A stretch of DNA of 7,830 bases from Nitrospinae bacterium RIFCSPLOWO2_12_FULL_45_22 (GTDB lineage Bacteria; 2-12-FULL-45-22): positions 2,988-10,817 of the forward strand of contig MHDQ01000131.1 of the NCBI GenBank assembly GCA_001803565.1. The letters are read 5' to 3'. The position numbers were made by a program, and so were the translations under genes. The notes beneath the pieces are model-generated. The model worked only from the letters and a program-made list of their open reading frames with translations. It was not told where the DNA came from and did not search any database. Below are positions 1 through 7,759 of the stretch, one piece after another. Position 1 is the stretch's first letter; each line of letters starts with the position of its first letter.

Positions 1-969
1 AAAATCTTACATAACGATTTAGAGCGGCATCAACTTGCCCATGCTTACTTATTCCTGGGGCCGGAAGATATAGGCAAGAAATATACTGCTATTAGCTTTG
101 CTAAGGCGGTGAATTGCTCTCAAAAGCAGGCGGACTTTTGTGATGAATGTCTATCCTGCCGAAAGATAGATAAGGCCATTCATCCCGATATAAGTCTGGT
201 TAGGCCCCAGGGGAATTATATCCGGATTGACCAGTTGCGAGAGCTGCAAAATAGGATAGCTTTTAAACCATTAGAAGCTAAAAGCAAAGTAGTGATCATG
301 GATGAGGCAGAGAAACTTACCCCGGAAGCGGCCGGCGCTTTATTAAAAACCCTGGAAGAGCCTCCGTCCAATACTATAATAATCCTGGTATCACACAAGC
401 CTTTTAGCCTACCTGCCACTATTATTTCCCGGTGCCGCTTAATGAAGTTTAACTCCTTAAAGCCCGCTAATATAGCAAAAATCTTGATAGAAAAGGTATC
501 CTTTAACCCGGAACAGGCCCGGTTAGTAGCCTCGTTATCGCTTGGCAGGATAGGGAGGGCCCTGACCCTGGACTTATCGCGAATACTAGCTTTGAGAGAT
601 GAGGCATTAAGAGTTTTTGACCTTGAGAGGGGCAATAGAATAAAGTATATTTTAAGTAAGCTTAAAGAATGGGAGAAGGATCGCAATGAGGCTGAGGAGT
701 GGTTAAATGGCTTACTGATAGTTGGTCGGGATCTGATGGTTTTGGTCAGTGGGCTCCCCTCGGTCTTTTTAATTAATAGTGACCTGGAGAAAAGACTGAG
801 CAGTATTGCTAACAAACTAACATTAGAAATGACCATTAGCCTATTAGAAAACATTAGAAAAACCCAGCAATTGTTACCACAAAATGTCAATACTCAATTG
901 GCTATGAATAATCTGCTAAATGATATTTTAGAAATGATAGACCTCGGGAGGAAAAATGAAGATCTGTGA
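1..969 (+). CDS. holB: DNA polymerase III delta' subunit, 5' end missing
   Basis: This is the clamp-loader subunit delta' of the replicative polymerase, an AAA+ family protein that helps load the sliding clamp in the cytoplasm. The frame is open from base 1, so about a dozen N-terminal residues lie outside the window; 322 residues are visible. In visible numbering there is a degenerate P-loop (GPEDIGKK, 20-27), a zinc-binding set of cysteines (C39, C47, C50, C53), a Walker B-like DEAE at 101-104 followed by a helix with LLKTLEEPP, and the SRC motif at 143-145 that marks delta'/gamma proteins. The altered P-loop (no GKT) is usual for delta', which does not hydrolyse ATP. The stop overlaps the ricT start by 14 bp, which indicates one operon. 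The DnaX gamma/tau protein is the main alternative, but it has an intact Walker A and is longer. Confidence 0.95.
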   Translation, partial: KILHNDLERHQLAHAYLFLGPEDIGKKYTAISFAKAVNCSQKQADFCDECLSCRKIDKAIHPDISLVRPQGNYIRIDQLRELQNRIAFKPLEAKSKVVIMDEAEKLTPEAAGALLKTLEEPPSNTIIILVSHKPFSLPATIISRCRLMKFNSLKPANIAKILIEKVSFNPEQARLVASLSLGRIGRALTLDLSRILALRDEALRVFDLERGNRIKYILSKLKEWEKDRNEAEEWLNGLLIVGRDLMVLVSGLPSVFLINSDLEKRLSSIANKLTLEMTISLLENIRKTQQLLPQNVNTQLAMNNLLNDILEMIDLGRKNEDL

Positions 970-1486
970 ATGGGGGATCGGAGCCCCCTTAAGAAAAATC
1001 CTGCGTAAGGCCGCCGAAGAAAATATAGAGGCCATTGCACATCTGGAGGAGTTAGAGCGCGAGGCCATGCAGTTTTGTCAAGAAAAAATAAAAGAGAGAA
1101 GTCTACCTATGGAACTGTTGGATGTGGAATTTAACTCTGATCAATCCAAAGCGACCTTTTATTTCAAGGCTAATAAACGGGTTGATTTTCGTGAGCTGGT
1201 AAAAGAGTTAGCCCAACAGTTCAAGACCAGGATCGAGATGCGGCAGATAGGAGCAAGGGATGAAGCAAGATTGTGGGGCGGAGTAGGTGTGTGCGGGCGG
1301 GGCCTTTGTTGTACCACTTTTTTGCGGCAATTTCAGCCTGTCTCTATCAATATGGCTAAACAGCAAAAACTTACCCTAGACCCGGCTAAAATCTCAGGTC
1401 AATGCGGCCGGCTTATGTGCTGCTTAGCCTTTGAGCTAGATATGAGGGATAAGTATAAACAAAAAGAGAGGGGCGTAGATGGCTAA
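956..1486 (+). CDS. ricT: PSP1 C-terminal domain protein (RicT/YaaT), short N-terminus
   Basis: RicT (YaaT) acts in Bacillus with RicA and RicF in the Fe-S-carrying Y-complex that influences RNA processing and developmental phosphorylation. The 176 residues carry the PSP1 core: the RVDFRELVKELA helix, the TRIEMRQIGARDEA segment, and two cysteine clusters, C113/C118/C119 and C150/C155/C156, in the GxCGRxxCC and GxCGRLMCC contexts. Start choice rests on a strong GGGAGG at 946-951, four bases before ATG 956. The gene overlaps holB by 14 bp and metG by 8 bp, so translation is probably coupled. Family members are usually about 270 aa. The usual N-terminal 65-70 residues are absent here, and similarity begins near APLRKILRKA (10-19). 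The family call is secure; whether the short form is functional is not. Confidence 0.9.
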   Translation: MKICEWGIGAPLRKILRKAAEENIEAIAHLEELEREAMQFCQEKIKERSLPMELLDVEFNSDQSKATFYFKANKRVDFRELVKELAQQFKTRIEMRQIGARDEARLWGGVGVCGRGLCCTTFLRQFQPVSINMAKQQKLTLDPAKISGQCGRLMCCLAFELDMRDKYKQKERGVDG

Positions 1487-3446
1487 AAATACCTTTTATG
1501 TAACTACACCTATCTATTATGTCAATGATATTCCCCATATCGGTCATGCTTATACAACTATTGCGGCCGATGTCCTGGCCCGCTATAAGCGTCTGTCGGG
1601 CTATGATGTCTTTTTCTTAACCGGTACCGATGAGCATGGGCAGAAAATAGAGAGGACTGCCCTGGAGTCAGGTGAACAACCCCAATCGTTAGCTGATAGA
1701 GTTGTGGAACGCTTTAAGGAACTATGGGCAAGGCTCAATATCTCCTATAACGATTTTATCCGCACCACAGAATTGCGGCATAAAGAGGCAGTGAGGGCCT
1801 TTTTCCAGAAAGTATATCAGCAGGGAGATATTTACTTAGGTGATTATGAGGGGTGGTACTGTACACCCTGCGAGAGCTTTATAACTGAAACCCAGGTCTC
1901 GCTGGAAAATAATTGCCCTGATTGTGGCCGGCCAGCCGAAAGGGTGAAGGAGAAGAGTTTTTTCTTCCGGATGTCTAAATACCAGGAGCCGCTCCTGGAT
2001 CATATTGAAAAAAATCCCGCTTTTATCCAGCCGGTCAGCCGTAGGAACGAGATTATCAGTTTTGTAAAAGGGGGACTCAAGGACCTGAGTATCAGCCGTA
2101 CGAGCTTCCGCTGGGGCATCCCGGTCCCTTTTCAGCCTGATCATATAATCTATGTCTGGTTTGATGCCTTAACCAATTATATCTCTGCTATTGGCTACCC
2201 CGGCAACCAGGGCCTCTTCCAGAACTTCTGGCCCGCGGATGTGCACCTGGTAGGGAAAGACATATTACGCTTCCATACTGTCTACTGGCCTACCTTCCTT
2301 ATGGCGGCTGGCTTGCCCCTGCCTAAAAAGGTCTTTGCCCATGGCTGGTGGACTGTGGAAGGGAAAAAGATGTCCAAATCCCTAAGAAACGTGGTAGACC
2401 CTAATCGCCTCATTGATACCTATGGGGCAGATGCCGTGCGCTACTTCCTGCTCCGCGAAGTCCCTTTTGGCCTGGATGGTGATTTTTCGCATGAGACCTT
2501 TATCCAACGCATTAATAGCGATCTAGCTAATGACCTGGGTAACCTCTTCAACCGCTCCCTGGTTATGATAAAGAAGTACTTTGGTGGTAGGCTCCCCACA
2601 GCGAGCACCCCGGGCGATGGCGCTATACTCTTAAAGAGCAAAGCCGAGGAACTGTATCAGGAACTAGAGCCAGCTTTTAATGAGCTGGCCTTTAATAAAG
2701 TCCTGACCAGGGCCTGGGAACTTATAAATATCACTAATAAATATATAGATAGCTCAGCACCCTGGGTACTGGCTAAAGAACCTGCTAGAAAATCAGAGCT
2801 TGGCCAGGTCTTATATAGTGTTATGGAGACACTACGGATAATAACCCTTACCCTGGCCCCGTTTATGCCTTCTACCGCTGAGGAGATGTGGTATCAACTG
2901 GGCCGGGAAGAAGACTTGTGGGGTCAACAGATCAATTCTATAAAGGACTGGGGGCTATCTCCGGCTGGTATAGAGGTCCGGCCCAGGAAACAGCTCTTCC
3001 CACGGCTGGAGCGAGATATTTCTCTGAAATTCAAGGAAGAAATAACAGATCGGGGAGCTGCCCTAATCCCTGAGCCCCAAGCCCCGGGCTCCGACCCCCG
3101 ACCCCCGATCCCTTCCCTCATTAGCCTGGCTCAGTTCCAGCAGGTGGATTTGCGCACAGCCAGGGTGCTGGAGGCAGAGGTAGTAAAAGGGTCTAAAAAG
3201 CTGATTAAATTGAAACTGGACCTGGACTATGAAAAAAGGACCGTGGTGGCCGGTATTGCCCAGAGCTACCAGCCAGAGGAGTTATTGGGCAAGACGGTGA
3301 TTTTAGTTGCTAACCTGGAACCAACCAAATTAATGGGTATTGAGTCGCAAGGGATGATCCTGGCAGCCGATACTGATGAAGCTACGGGCAAGCTGGCCCT
3401 GGCTACTTTTACTGATCAGGTCAAACCTGGCACCCGACTGCGTTAG
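1479..3446 (+). CDS. metG: methionyl-tRNA synthetase with C-terminal tRNA-binding domain
   Basis: This enzyme charges tRNA-Met with methionine using ATP in the cytoplasm. It is a class I synthetase of 655 residues. Visible features are the HIGH signature (20-23), a zinc knuckle with C128, C131, C146 and C149, the KMSKS loop (297-301), the helical anticodon-binding region, and a C-terminal OB-fold tRNA-binding/dimerisation domain from about residue 551 (QVDLRTARVLEAE onward). Length and layout match the common bacterial dimeric form. The start ATG follows AGAGAGGGG at 1465-1473 and overlaps the ricT stop by 8 bp. The linker before the C-terminal domain (about 528-547) is rich in Pro, Asp and Arg, and is partly encoded by a 7-bp repeat. 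I see no sign of damage. Confidence 0.98.
   Translation: MAKNTFYVTTPIYYVNDIPHIGHAYTTIAADVLARYKRLSGYDVFFLTGTDEHGQKIERTALESGEQPQSLADRVVERFKELWARLNISYNDFIRTTELRHKEAVRAFFQKVYQQGDIYLGDYEGWYCTPCESFITETQVSLENNCPDCGRPAERVKEKSFFFRMSKYQEPLLDHIEKNPAFIQPVSRRNEIISFVKGGLKDLSISRTSFRWGIPVPFQPDHIIYVWFDALTNYISAIGYPGNQGLFQNFWPADVHLVGKDILRFHTVYWPTFLMAAGLPLPKKVFAHGWWTVEGKKMSKSLRNVVDPNRLIDTYGADAVRYFLLREVPFGLDGDFSHETFIQRINSDLANDLGNLFNRSLVMIKKYFGGRLPTASTPGDGAILLKSKAEELYQELEPAFNELAFNKVLTRAWELINITNKYIDSSAPWVLAKEPARKSELGQVLYSVMETLRIITLTLAPFMPSTAEEMWYQLGREEDLWGQQINSIKDWGLSPAGIEVRPRKQLFPRLERDISLKFKEEITDRGAALIPEPQAPGSDPRPPIPSLISLAQFQQVDLRTARVLEAEVVKGSKKLIKLKLDLDYEKRTVVAGIAQSYQPEELLGKTVILVANLEPTKLMGIESQGMILAADTDEATGKLALATFTDQVKPGTRLR
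3091..3111 (+). repeat. three 7-bp units inside the metG linker
   Basis: The units read CCGACCC, CCGACCC and CCGATCC. Three units of seven equal 21 bp, so the metG frame is kept, and they encode part of the Pro/Asp/Arg-rich linker between the anticodon-binding domain and the C-terminal tRNA-binding domain. A surface linker would tolerate such an insertion. Confidence 0.7.
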
Positions 3447-3549
3447 GTTATTACGTTATTGGGTTACTAGGTTATTAGGTAACTAAATAACGCAATGACC
3501 CAATAACCTAATGACTAAATAACGCAATGGCGCAATTACGTAATAACTC
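3446..3549 (+). repeat. array of thirteen 8-bp units filling the metG-tatD gap
   Basis: Reading from the last base of the metG stop codon, the sequence divides without remainder into 13 octamers up to the base before the tatD ATG. The first four to five resemble GGTTATTA (GGTTATTA, CGTTATTG, GGTTACTA, GGTTATTA, GGTAACTA). The next eight resemble AATAACGC/AATGACCC, which is the same motif on the opposite strand. The array is therefore also an imperfect inverted repeat; for example, 12 bases around GTTATTGGGTTA pair with TGACCCAATAAC with one mismatch. It holds no visible ribosome-binding site or poly-T terminator. Confidence 0.9.
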
Positions 3550-4947
3550 ATGCTGATAGACACCCATGCCCATCTGGATTTTCCTGATTATGAACCTGAC
3601 CGGGAACAAGTGCTCCAGCGGGCCTCAGACGCAGGGATACAATATATTATTACCGTCGGGACTGACCTCGCTTCTAGCAAAAAGTCTTGTGAGCTCAGCC
3701 AGTCTTATCCCCAAATATATGCCAGCATCGGCATCCATCCCCACGAAGTCAAAGAGCTGGGGCCTGACCCCTCAGATATTTACGATGTCCTGAAAGGGCT
3801 AGTGCGGCAGGGCAAAGGGAAAGTAATAGCCTGGGGAGAGGCTGGGTTAGACTATTACCGGGATTATTCTCCCAGGGAGGTTCAGGAGAGGGAATTTCGC
3901 CACCAGGTCAGGATAGCTCAGGAGCTGGACCTGCCTTTGATTATCCATGCCCGGCAGGCCCATGACGAAGTATTGAAAATCCTTAACGAAGAAGCGGGCC
4001 CCAGGTTGCGGGGTGTCTTCCACTGCTTCTCTGGCGATGAGAGGATTGCTAAGGAAGTGCTGGGCTTAGGTTTTTATATCTCCCTGGCAGGCCCCCTTAC
4101 CTACCCCAACTCTCATAAATTACAGCGGCTGGCAAAAATACTCCCTACTGACCGCCTATTGCTGGAGACCGATGCCCCCTTCTTAACACCCCAACCACGG
4201 CGCGGGAAACGAAACGAGCCCGCCTTTGTCACCTATGCGGCGGATAAACTCGCTGAGATAAAGGGGCTTTCTAGTAGAGATATTGCCCGGATAACTTCCC
4301 TCAATGCCTCTCTTCTGTTCGGCATAGGAGGAAAGGATAAGACCGCTAAGATCGTTTACCAAATAAGGAAATCCCTCTACCTCAACCTGACTAATCGCTG
4401 CACCAACAACTGCTGCTTCTGTGTCAGGAACGATACCACCTATGTTAAAGGGCATAACCTGAAACTATCCCAGGAGCCTTCCATAGAGGAGCTCTGGCAA
4501 GCCACAACTGCAGAAGACCCAGGCCGCTACCAGGAGGTGGTATTCTGTGGCTTAGGGGAACCTACGTTGAGGCTAGAGGTTATTAAAGAGATTGCCCGTC
4601 GCTTAAAAACCAGAGGGATAAGGGTACGGCTCAACACCAATGGCCAGGGCAATTTGATCCATGCCAGAAATATCCTGCCGGAGCTAGAGGGCTTGATTGA
4701 TGCTATCTCTGTGAGCCTCAATGCAGAGGATAAAGAAAAATATTATCACTTATGCCACCCCATATTTGGCCTTGATACTTATGACCAGGTCAAGGAATTT
4801 ATTAGGGGGGCGAAGCGATATATCCCGCAGGTAGGTGTCACGGTGCTGGATATGCCCTGGGAGATAGATCTAAGCAAGTGTCAGGAGATAGCAGAAAAGG
4901 AGTTGGGGGTTTCCTTCCGCATCAGAGAATATAACATACTCGGCTGA
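3550..4947 (+). CDS. fusion of TatD family hydrolase and TatD-linked radical SAM protein
   Basis: Residues 1 to about 258 form a TatD-type metal-dependent hydrolase (TIM-barrel, DNase family). Metal ligands are visible: H6 and H8 (THAHLD), E97 (GEAGLD), H133 (IIHARQ), H158 (VFHCFSGD) and D208 (LETDAP). Residues about 270-465 form a radical SAM domain with the 4Fe-4S cysteines C284, C288 and C291 (CX3CX2C) and a CGLGEPTL segment (333-340) in the SAM-binding GGE position. Free-standing radical SAM proteins encoded next to tatD are a recognised family, and fusions occur; the substrate of that half is unknown. The ATG directly follows the octamer array and has no clear Shine-Dalgarno sequence. 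Both halves look complete, and there is no frameshift at the junction. The gene is separated from metG by 103 bp and probably belongs to the same transcription unit. Confidence 0.93.
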   Translation: MLIDTHAHLDFPDYEPDREQVLQRASDAGIQYIITVGTDLASSKKSCELSQSYPQIYASIGIHPHEVKELGPDPSDIYDVLKGLVRQGKGKVIAWGEAGLDYYRDYSPREVQEREFRHQVRIAQELDLPLIIHARQAHDEVLKILNEEAGPRLRGVFHCFSGDERIAKEVLGLGFYISLAGPLTYPNSHKLQRLAKILPTDRLLLETDAPFLTPQPRRGKRNEPAFVTYAADKLAEIKGLSSRDIARITSLNASLLFGIGGKDKTAKIVYQIRKSLYLNLTNRCTNNCCFCVRNDTTYVKGHNLKLSQEPSIEELWQATTAEDPGRYQEVVFCGLGEPTLRLEVIKEIARRLKTRGIRVRLNTNGQGNLIHARNILPELEGLIDAISVSLNAEDKEKYYHLCHPIFGLDTYDQVKEFIRGAKRYIPQVGVTVLDMPWEIDLSKCQEIAEKELGVSFRIREYNILG

Positions 4948-4959
4948 AAAATCTATTTA

Positions 4960-4985
4960 CCACGGAGTCACAGAGAACACGGAGA
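4960..4985 (+). repeat. CACGGAG-type intergenic repeat
   Basis: The stretch reads as degenerate CAC(G/A)GAG-like units: CCACGGAG, TCACAGAG, AACACGGAG. Similar CACGGAG/CACAGAG runs are a common intergenic repeat in many environmental bacterial genomes; this is from memory, not a search. It lies between the fusion gene and the 214-aa gene and may supply purine-rich bases to a nearby start. Confidence 0.6.
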
Positions 4986-5019
4986 ATGGAAGAAGATTTA
5001 AATCAATTAGCAGAAAGGA

Positions 5020-5664
5020 TTGCACTATAAAAACTCGGTGCCCTCTGAGGCTTTTTTTAAAATCAAATATGAAGACCTGATGGGCATTTTTTATGGGATG
5101 ACTAAGGAGATATATGTGGGCGACCGCTCTCAGGTAAGGCCTGGTAGTTTTTGGACCAGCTTTGAGACCGACCCCTACCTAAAAATTACCAGGAGCGATA
5201 TCTATGGTCGGTGTGTCCCTTGTATAGAGAGCTTATATTTTCAGATCAAAGAGGGGAAAGAGCTAATAAATGTAGAACTGGTAAACAATTGCTGGAAGGT
5301 AGGGATTATACTTAATAGCGAAGAAGAATGCCTGGCCTTTTTATATTATTACCAGGAAATTTTTTTGTCCGCTAGACCAGTCAGGGGCCGCTTTGGTACG
5401 CGAGATGCCAACTTAGGCACCTATCTCCTCCTGTTCCAGGCCGAGAGCGAAACCGAGAAGGACATCTTAGCGGAAGAACTGACACTATGCAAAGCTGCCT
5501 TACAGCGACCAGCCGAGATCTTTATCCAAAAAGGTTGTGCCAGCCTCTATCATGAGCTGCTGGGTCCCTGGCAGGCCTGGCAAGCATATACCCCTATCCA
5601 GAAGCCTGACCTTGTTCCTCAGCTCCTGTCTCATATCCGCAAACTCCTCTTCTGGGATGAATAA
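5020..5664 (+). CDS. hypothetical protein, 214 aa, start uncertain
   Basis: I do not recognise this protein. It has no evident signal peptide or membrane segment, so it is probably cytoplasmic. It contains one CxxC (C65, C68; GRCVPCIES), further lone cysteines, an aromatic-rich stretch near 105-117 (LAFLYYYQEIFL) and a helical, Trp/Leu-rich C-terminus ending RKLLFWDE. The frame opens after a TAG at 5008-5010, so the first possible start is TTG 5020; AAAGGA touches it and is too close for a good ribosome-binding site. GTG 5038 and ATG 5080 are alternatives. An ATG at 4986 in another frame gives 14 residues ending ERIAL that read naturally into YKNSVPSEAFF, so the true N-terminus may have been lost to a small indel near 5025. 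It follows the fusion gene on the same strand and faces the antitoxin gene. Confidence 0.7.
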   Translation: MHYKNSVPSEAFFKIKYEDLMGIFYGMTKEIYVGDRSQVRPGSFWTSFETDPYLKITRSDIYGRCVPCIESLYFQIKEGKELINVELVNNCWKVGIILNSEEECLAFLYYYQEIFLSARPVRGRFGTRDANLGTYLLLFQAESETEKDILAEELTLCKAALQRPAEIFIQKGCASLYHELLGPWQAWQAYTPIQKPDLVPQLLSHIRKLLFWDE

Positions 5665-5735
5665 CCCACCTGGTTGGCCGTAATCTTTAACTATTACCCT
5701 TTCCGCCTTGACTTAAACTTACTATGAATACTTTT

Positions 5736-5993
5736 TTACATTTTAGCTACTTCTTTTTTCATTTCATCTAAGGATATTCTTTTCCCTAGTTTAAATTCCT
5801 TTCTTGATTTTGCAATAATCTCGAGGAATTCTTGATTTGTGCTTAAAGATATTGATTCCATATCTACGTCTTTTAGCGAAACAAGCGCCGCCACAGGCTT
5901 ATCCTTCGATTTTAGAACCAGTATTTCTTTATCAATTTCTTTGGCATACTCAGATAAAGGTTTGGAGGCCGTTTCTAAATCAATTGTTTTCAT
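5736..5993 (-). CDS. Phd/YefM-family antitoxin
   Basis: This 85-aa protein has the Phd/YefM layout. An N-terminal DNA-binding part (ETASKPLSEYAKEI, about 7-20) leads to the typical KDKPVAALVSLKD strand segment (about 30-43), followed by a charged, helical C-terminal tail that would wrap the toxin. Such proteins neutralise their toxin and repress their own operon. The gene lies directly downstream of a RelE-like toxin gene; in the repaired toxin frame the stop TGA overlaps this ATG as ATGA. The order toxin-then-antitoxin is the reverse of the commonest RelBE layout but is seen in other systems. The antitoxin looks intact although its partner is broken. It converges with the + strand genes, with 71 bp between; I see no clear terminator there. 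Confidence 0.85.
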   Translation of the reverse strand: MKTIDLETASKPLSEYAKEIDKEILVLKSKDKPVAALVSLKDVDMESISLSTNQEFLEIIAKSRKEFKLGKRISLDEMKKEVAKM

Positions 5994-6297
5994 AATTTCA
6001 CCGTCTTTCCAGCCATAAATAAGACACTACCTTTCTTATAACCTACTGCAAGGATTTTTACAATTTTACAATATTGGGATCATCTGATGTGATAGCGTAA
6101 AATGCACGAAGGTTGCCTATTCTTAATTCCCAAGGGGCAATTGGGTTAGGACGAAGAGGTTTTCTATTTCGTGTCTCTTTCAGAGGCTCGTGGAAAAGTT
6201 GCTTTTCAATTCCATCCATTATTAATGAACGCTGACTTGCGTTTAGGTGTTTGAAATGTTCTCTGACGCAATCGGCAAATTCGATTTTGTAGGCCAT
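5990..6297 (-). pseudogene. RelE-type toxin gene broken by an 8-bp duplication
   Basis: As it stands the frame runs from ATG 6297 to a stop at 6058, giving 79 residues. These match the RelE/ParE toxin fold: YKIEFADCVREHFKHL at the start, then ELRIGNLRAFYAI before the end. The final strand is cut off at NIVKL. Immediately after, another frame encodes KILAVGYKKGSVLFMAG and then KTVKL-stop, the usual C-terminus of the family. The break falls at two tandem copies of TTGTAAAA (- strand). Removing one copy gives a continuous 99-codon frame whose stop overlaps the antitoxin start. RelE-type toxins are ribosome-dependent mRNA endonucleases, and C-terminal residues are needed for activity in characterised members, so this copy is probably inactive. 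No Shine-Dalgarno sequence precedes the ATG (AGAATAAAAA). Confidence 0.88.
6056..6071 (-). repeat. 8-bp tandem duplication causing the toxin frameshift
   Basis: On the + strand TTTTACAA occurs twice in direct succession (6056-6063 and 6064-6071). It adds 8 bp, which is not a multiple of three, inside the toxin gene. Slippage at such a repeat could also delete one copy and restore the gene. Confidence 0.9.
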
Positions 6298-6325
6298 TTT
6301 TTATTCTAATTTTAAAGCCACAATG

Positions 6326-6357
6326 GGTAAGGGAGAGGCCGTCGCCACTCCCTTACC
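6326..6357 (-). other. strong hairpin at the 3' end of the structured region
   Basis: GGTAAGGGAG pairs perfectly with CTCCCTTACC over 10 bp. After a U-U mismatch three more G-C pairs close a GACG loop. The following bases (CATTGTGGCTTTAAAATT on the - strand) lack a real T-run, so this is not a textbook Rho-independent terminator. It may be the 3' boundary stem of the RNA or an element upstream of the toxin gene, whose ATG lies 28 bp further on. Confidence 0.6.
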
Positions 6358-7229
6358 GTTGTCGCAATAGGGTCAATTCCCTATATTTGCCCCGATAGAA
6401 AACTTTCCTAACGAGGTTTACCAGCGTGAGTCTTTCTCTCACTGGGCGGCCCCCGCAAGATTGCCCCAAATAGGGGAGTAATCATATCGACCTTTGCCTG
6501 TTTGCAACAGGTGTTCCCTTGTTGATACGATTACCGAAGGTAGTCGATCAATATCTACATCGAGAGTGTTCTTAGCGTTACATTGAGCCTTCCCCTACTT
6601 TTCATACATGAAAGTAAGGGAGAGCCTTATGTGGCCGATACTCGTAAGCTAACTTCTCCCATGCGGTTACCTCTCCTACCTCTCTCTTTTAGGTGTACCC
6701 TTTTGAGCTTCCAAAAGAAAGCCCTCCTCCGGGTACGCTGTAGACCCTAAAGAGCAAGAGCCAGGGATAGCCCCGTGCTCACCATCGCATAACGCCAACA
6801 TTTCGGCATAGCCTTATAGTTGCCGCTTATCTCCATCTTCACAAATGGAGAACGACGTAGATCATTCATCGGTCAGTTATTGCACCATTTTCCTCAGGTG
6901 AAACCACCAAGCACCCCCACGAGTCATCCATGGATAATCGTCCACTACATGGACGGAGGTCAATAGACTACATAACCCCAGCGCTTCAGTCGTCGTTAGG
7001 CTCCTGGCGCACAGAGAAGGCCGAATCGTGACTCCTCCCGAAGTATCATTGCCTGGCCCCTTCGCCACAGCCCATTTCTGGACTGCCCTGGCTGCATACC
7101 CCTCAAAAGAGAGTTCGAGCAATGACTTCTGTACGGAGACGAATCCGCACCTGTCTGCCAAGGCACAGGCAGGCTCCGACCCTAAAAGGGCCTCACCGTT
7201 TAAGACTGAGCGCAATTAACCTGCGTCTC
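6326..7229 (-). ncRNA. candidate large structured RNA, about 900 nt, family unknown
   Basis: This is the longest stretch without a convincing gene. It is dense in local stems, read on the - strand: 7208-7229 (GAGCGCA stem with one bulged A), 7150-7173, 7131-7150 (7 bp), 7068-7085 (CAGUCCA-GAAA-UGGGCUG, a GNRA loop), a longer-range 7-bp helix pairing 7119-7125 with 7046-7052, 6940-6954, 6831-6850, 6752-6756 with 6776-6780, 6695-6700 with 6731-6736 enclosing 6705-6724, 6588-6625 (about 16 bp), 6522-6551, 6497-6511, 6421-6445, and 6326-6357. In the stems at 7068, 7131, 6705 and 6588, G-U wobbles on the - strand would be A-C mismatches on the + strand, so the - strand is the likely RNA. Size and complexity recall large bacterial RNAs such as OLE, GOLLD or ROOL, but I recognise none of their motifs. 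Transcription is not shown. Confidence 0.5.
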
Positions 7230-7230
7230 A

Positions 7231-7288
7231 CGGTAACGATAGAGCTAAGCTGCCGCTGAAAGCGGTTGGCTGGAGCGAATGGTTAGGT
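7231..7288 (-). mobile_element. integron attC site (left)
   Basis: On the - strand it opens with ACCTAAC (R'', 7288-7282), then CATTCGCTCCAGCC, a hairpin CCGCTTTCAGCGG, and AGCTTAGCTCTATC before GTTACCG (R', 7237-7231). The CGCTCCAGCC left arm is shared with the right attC. The R' end keeps GTTA but breaks the GTTRRRY rule, because the bases after G belong to whatever follows the cassette. The site lies three bases after the stop of the 127-aa membrane protein gene, as expected for a cassette recombination site. Confidence 0.85.
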
Positions 7289-7290
7289 GC

Positions 7291-7674
7291 TCAAGACACA
7301 AAGCCAAAATAGCCGAACAAGAGTCCGACGAAAATCCAAACATATGGAAGTATCCTCAAAACCCTGTCGTTGAAAAATGGTTTGGAGAGACTCTGAAAAT
7401 ATTTTGGGAAGGCTATTATGATTACGCCTTTCATTAGGGTGAGCCAGCCGATAATCGTTATCAGCACAGTCCAGTTTCTTTCCCAGCTATTGTGATAGTT
7501 CACTATCATAAATCCAATAATGACTGCCGTGAGACCCATAAAGTATGTCAGTGCAGTGTTCTTGAACATGTCGTCCTTTAGTCTGCGATAATGATCTGCA
7601 CTGAAAATCCCACCTACAGCAACCGATAGATATATTACCGAAATGATTTTGGCGATGAGCCTAGATAGTTCCAT
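7291..7674 (-). CDS. small four-helix membrane protein, cassette-borne
   Basis: This 127-aa protein has four hydrophobic segments: residues about 6-25, 39-59, 68-92 and 106-124. They are separated by short charged loops, including HYRRLKDD and YHNSWERN. It is probably an inner-membrane protein of unknown role. The WTVLITIIGWLTLMKG stretch resembles a widespread family of small uncharacterised membrane proteins; this is from memory. ATG 7674 is chosen because GGAGG at 7683-7687 lies 8 bases upstream. ATG 7689 and GTG 7716 are in frame, but the latter starts inside the attC. The stop lies three bases before the next attC, leaving almost no non-coding DNA in the cassette. No promoter is visible between the attC and the gene, so expression probably depends on read-through from the right. 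Confidence 0.8.
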   Translation of the reverse strand: MELSRLIAKIISVIYLSVAVGGIFSADHYRRLKDDMFKNTALTYFMGLTAVIIGFMIVNYHNSWERNWTVLITIIGWLTLMKGVIIIAFPKYFQSLSKPFFNDRVLRILPYVWIFVGLLFGYFGFVS

Positions 7675-7682
7675 ATCAGCGG

Positions 7683-7687
7683 CCTCC
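7683..7687 (-). promoter_or_regulatory. ribosome-binding site deciding the cassette gene start
   Basis: GGAGG on the - strand lies 8 bases before ATG 7674. It overlaps the alternative ATG at 7689, which has no site of its own, so 7674 is the likelier start. Confidence 0.65.
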
Positions 7688-7698
7688 ATATCTGTTGC

Positions 7699-7759
7699 GC
7701 CTAACGATAAGCTCACCCGCGCGCGGTTTTTGCGCGTCGGCTGGAGCGCTTTGTTAGAC
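7699..7759 (-). mobile_element. integron attC site (right)
   Basis: On the - strand it reads GTCTAAC (R'', 7759-7753), AAAGCGCTCCAGCC, a GC-rich hairpin around GACGCGCAAAAACCGCGCGC, GGGTGAGCTTATC, then GTTAGGC (R', 7705-7699). Both ends fit the RYYYAAC/GTTRRRY consensus, and length (61 bp) and arm sequences are typical. The polarity gives cassettes reading on the - strand, in line with the flanking ORFs. Confidence 0.92.

Follow-up and report, generated by a model that had tools for sequence, protein, structure and literature searches.

In integrons, the integrase IntI recognises the folded bottom strand of an attC site and exchanges cassettes at the G/TT of the R' box. Published surveys place integrons across various bacterial phyla as well as archaeal MAGs and describe their distribution as patchy (PMC9024848, PMC9668308). 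Here we analysed a stretch of 7,830 nucleotides (the window) from a draft MAG (3.67 Mb in 321 contigs, 85% complete), corresponding to positions 2988-10817 of contig C131. The right end of this window almost certainly belongs to a sedentary chromosomal integron, of which it forms the distal part beside the metG operon and which would work by the standard IntI/attC cassette mechanism. Matches to an attC covariance model, integrase genes and attC sites that number in the dozens across the genome and are co-oriented together show a real chromosomal integron. Weak points of this reading are a degenerate R' box (GTTACCG) at the left site and the draft state of the MAG.

The left part of the window carries a housekeeping block on the plus strand (1-5664), assigned from open reading frames (ORFs) and family matches as holB, ricT (PSP1), metG, a tatD/radical-SAM fusion and a 214-aa ORF. 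The fusion gene is a single ORF (3550-4947) in which a TatD nuclease is joined to a TatD-linked radical SAM domain. The coding strand switches at about position 5700, with genes on the minus strand from there rightward, and the housekeeping block adjoins the distal end of the cassette array. The right edge of the window is the end of the 10.8-kb contig, and the array could not be traced further in that direction.

To identify attC sites, we took ten sites from contigs of this genome other than C131, aligned them by sequence only and derived a covariance model that contained neither window site; a box-and-arm scan had supplied a first list, which often reported both strands and missed the left window site, and the model was used instead. 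The R and L helices covary across the ten outside sites, with 85.7% of cells paired and a covariation score of 0.382 relative to 0.126 in shuffled alignments (0 of 500 shuffles; 0.10 or less when slid). Applied to the window, the model matched 7699-7759 (61 nt, minus strand; 53.5 bits, E=1.1e-11), with boxes R'' GTCTAAC, L'' GCTCCAGCC, L' GGGTGAGC and R' GTTAGGC, and 7232-7288 (57 nt, minus strand; 36.9 bits, E=1.3e-7), with R'' ACCTAAC, the same L'' GCTCCAGCC and the degenerate R' GTTACCG; the next-best match in the window reached 9.3 bits (E=0.7). By the model match and the pair covariation, both sites qualify as attC, for which complementary R''/R' core boxes and an unpaired base in the L''/L' pair are required; their bottom strands fold into the expected R/L hairpins under DNA parameters (z about -2), a fold energy that by itself cannot separate the top strand of an attC from the bottom strand. 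By sequence, fold and orientation, 7699-7759 and 7232-7288 are genuine attC recombination sites.

The initial annotation had described two attC sites of 58 and 61 bp with a common arm and one orientation, 468 bp apart. The longer site was sized correctly and the shorter is 57 nt; the sequence CGCTCCAGCC, in minus-strand reading, is indeed common to both, and both are minus-oriented, so that the cassettes read from right to left. The starts of the sites are 467 bp apart, with 410 bp between them, and the pair therefore forms an array under a definition of at least two attC sites in one orientation less than 4 kb apart. A 32-nt element at 6970-7001 on the minus strand (GCCTAAC ... GTTATGT; 8.6 bits, not significant) is possibly an eroded attC that has lost its middle.

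The window contains one complete cassette, running on the minus strand from 7703 to 7237 between two G/TT cutting points and closed by the left attC. Its ORF (start ATG at 7689, stop at 7291; 132 aa) is the one previously noticed between the sites, and its stop lies two bases, rather than the reported three, ahead of the R'' box at 7288. The hydrophobic sequence suggests a small membrane-type protein. It matched no Pfam or NCBIfam family above cut-off and is encoded by a single-copy gene in the genome; tblastn recovered distant hypothetical relatives (28-36% identity) on plasmids of Rhizobium, Sinorhizobium, Phyllobacterium, Methylocystis and Priestia, and no relative was found in viral contigs. 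The right attC closes an upstream cassette, of which the ORF tail runs off the contig end.

The suggested search for further attC sites and an intI gene succeeded on other contigs of the genome, the window's own contig ending at the window edge. Two full-length IntI are encoded, on C243 (467 bits) and C304 (439 bits), relative to a TIGR02249 cut-off of 265 bits that was passed by 0 of 14 control genomes. The alignment of the C243 protein with an integron integrase of solved structure, 2a3v (IntI4 in that entry), runs from end to end (E=7e-92), and the catalytic regions (R, HxxR and Y) as well as the IntI-specific insert are conserved; the genome thus encodes an IntI-type tyrosine recombinase with the IntI-specific domain. 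Both intI contigs carry attC sites: C243 shows the usual divergent layout, with intI on the minus strand followed by a cassette and its attC on the plus strand and then a HigB/HigA pair, also on plus, and C304 combines intI with six co-oriented attC sites and cassette genes encoding a TPR protein, a DUF6680 protein and others of no known function. Many partial IntI-like integrase genes (on C115, C136, C7, C317, C55 and others) suggest repeated integrase decay in this genome.

The covariance model gave 63 matches in the genome at an E-value of 0.5 or better. The loci examined comprised 59 attC sites on 30 contigs, namely 56 sites on 27 contigs of this genome and three single sites of a related genome. 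All 12 contigs with multiple sites have them in one orientation (median gap 783 bp), and many sites are found close to a contig end, in keeping with the breaking of assemblies at repeats. Under the proposed mechanism, the IntI tyrosine recombinase would be supplied from elsewhere in the genome by the two full-length genes, bind the folded bottom strand of attC and cut between the G and TT of R'; cassettes, typically one gene with its attC, could then be cut out in circular form and integrated either at attI or at a different attC. Presumably this array belongs to one element with the intI genes, its sites recombine and its cassettes are expressed.

Next to the array, the lineage of the host was considered. 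The comparison set included one other genome of the phylum, from the same order and another family, and the next nearest genomes shared only the domain; the best named full-length MetG relatives, from several phyla, are about 54% identical. The proposal that the host belongs to a lineage other than the Proteobacteria holds. The related genome, which is 68% complete, gave no metG match. Both genomes of the phylum carry IntI above the cut-off, and for this reason integrons may be old in the lineage. The C243 integrase shares 62% identity with that of the related genome, as against 53% with the single outside IntI in the comparison. With only two genomes of the phylum in the comparison, the earlier suggestion of a cassette array in a lineage with few known examples is fair, and the attC model, the intI genes and the co-oriented sites support the array itself: the system is of a known kind, and its lineage is thinly sampled.

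Directly behind the left attC, at the cassette boundary, begins a strongly folding stretch of about 900 nt without a convincing ORF (6316-7231, minus strand), whose predicted RNA fold has a z of -7 relative to 20 shuffles. Its first 200 bases (to about 7037) are found again on C216, where they directly follow an attC, and on C99 and C260, and its second half (6792 to 6322, from the TTATGC at 6792) has an 82% identical copy on C261 that forms the start of a cassette behind an attC; the multi-copy, ORF-less copies map to L034:2855-3107, L032:5920-6104, L033:5227-5320 and L031:1130-1583. In at least three places, the stretch begins at a cassette boundary behind an attC. Between the window and C261 copies, none of 134 predicted pairs is broken and three are changed on both sides, in a prediction that itself favours such pairs. 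No match was found in plasmids, and the exact 25-base core was not found in viral contigs. A palindromic repeat of 24-26 bp occupies 7149-7174 and has near-identical copies on 15 or more of the genome's contigs; since other copies of the stretch are without it, it was apparently inserted into the one in the window.

Further left lie a 79-aa ORF (6058-6297, minus strand), possibly a RelE-like toxin from the look of its sequence and its position (no family match), and an 85-aa Phd/YefM-like antitoxin (5736-5993, minus strand; sub-threshold PF02604 match, E=3.7e-4, 20.6 bits relative to a cut-off of 29.8). Together with the structured stretch, this putative toxin-antitoxin pair probably represents the worn tail of the array, that is, former cassette DNA; the covariance model recognised no further attC in the window between this tail and the metG operon. 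The stretch may be a leader RNA, a mobile intron in decay or a fusion of two non-coding cassettes. A broader idea, which we regard as tentative and on balance doubtful, is that large structured non-coding RNAs form a family of modules in the cassette arrays of this lineage, placed at cassette starts directly behind attC and sometimes ahead of toxin-antitoxin genes, and that the integrase moves them as leaders or non-coding cassettes. A limited literature search returned no such class of cassette-borne structured RNA modules.

The intron possibility concerns this stretch alone and leaves the attC sites untouched: it would be a degenerate group II intron at attC instead of cassette DNA. Group IIC introns that target attC are known (PMC7923331), and the GTGAG with which the stretch begins directly behind R', the strong fold and the recurrence behind another attC are all compatible with one. 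However, the stretch matched no Rfam family, and no group II model even at an E-value of 10; it contains neither a reverse transcriptase nor a recognisable domain V, its homology starts at the cassette boundary as a cassette origin would equally predict, and the usual orientation of group IIC-attC introns is opposite to that of the cassettes (PMC7923331). We therefore consider an intron unlikely. Group II reverse transcriptases were matched at just two places in the genome, neither of them linked to the stretch: C191 has a maturase fragment at the contig end, and C291 has a large fusion ORF. The latter (L134; C291, 13901-14833, minus strand) is a 1003-aa open frame combining a group II-like reverse transcriptase, TPR-like repeats and an apparent primase-type domain.

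As for the array as a whole, cassette DNA from another organism of the sample could have been mis-binned or joined to the metG block in a chimeric contig, given a draft MAG of 321 contigs, attC repeats that break assemblies and a contig that ends just past an attC. This is very improbable: sequence from the non-coding stretch next to the metG block is found again on further contigs within this bin, including some that carry attC sites; the other genome of the phylum, from a different family, has its own IntI; the integrases of the two genomes are closer to each other (58-62% identity) than to the one outside IntI compared (51-56%); and G+C is alike on either side of the junction between housekeeping block and array (47% and 45%). 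The short arms, and the weak R' box of the left site, could raise the suspicion that the hairpins arose by chance or are repeats of another kind with a mere resemblance to attC. The probability of this is negligible, because a model built independently of the window sites gives E-values of 1e-11 and 1e-7; the agreement in orientation, the intI genes and the dozens of attC sites elsewhere in this genome likewise speak against it, and this explanation was rejected on the covariance model and the genome context.

Taken together, the analysis contributes a chromosomal integron of dozens of cassettes from a phylum for which two genomes were compared. Its cassettes are a source of accessory genes of no known function, and the structured non-coding stretches behind attC offer a testable lead for cassette-carried RNA. 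Among described systems, the group IIC-attC introns (PMC7923331) share with this locus a structured non-coding stretch that starts directly behind the R' box of attC, and differ in that the stretch here has no intron family match and no reverse transcriptase. The contig of the window, with two attC sites and neither intI nor attI along the 10.8 kb to the window edge, is formally by itself a CALIN (cluster of attC sites lacking integron integrase) of two sites; unlike in a CALIN, the genome has two intact intI genes, and the absence of intI from this contig is therefore likely due to a contig break or to the distal position. Compared with the sedentary chromosomal integrons of Vibrio, Xanthomonas and others, the present system differs in a host phylum of two compared genomes, in an array split over dozens of contigs and in the structured non-coding stretch behind some attC sites, whereas it shares with them the IntI tyrosine recombinase, the R''-L''-L'-R' box order with an unpaired base in L'', and short co-oriented cassettes that include toxin-antitoxin cassettes and many of no known function.
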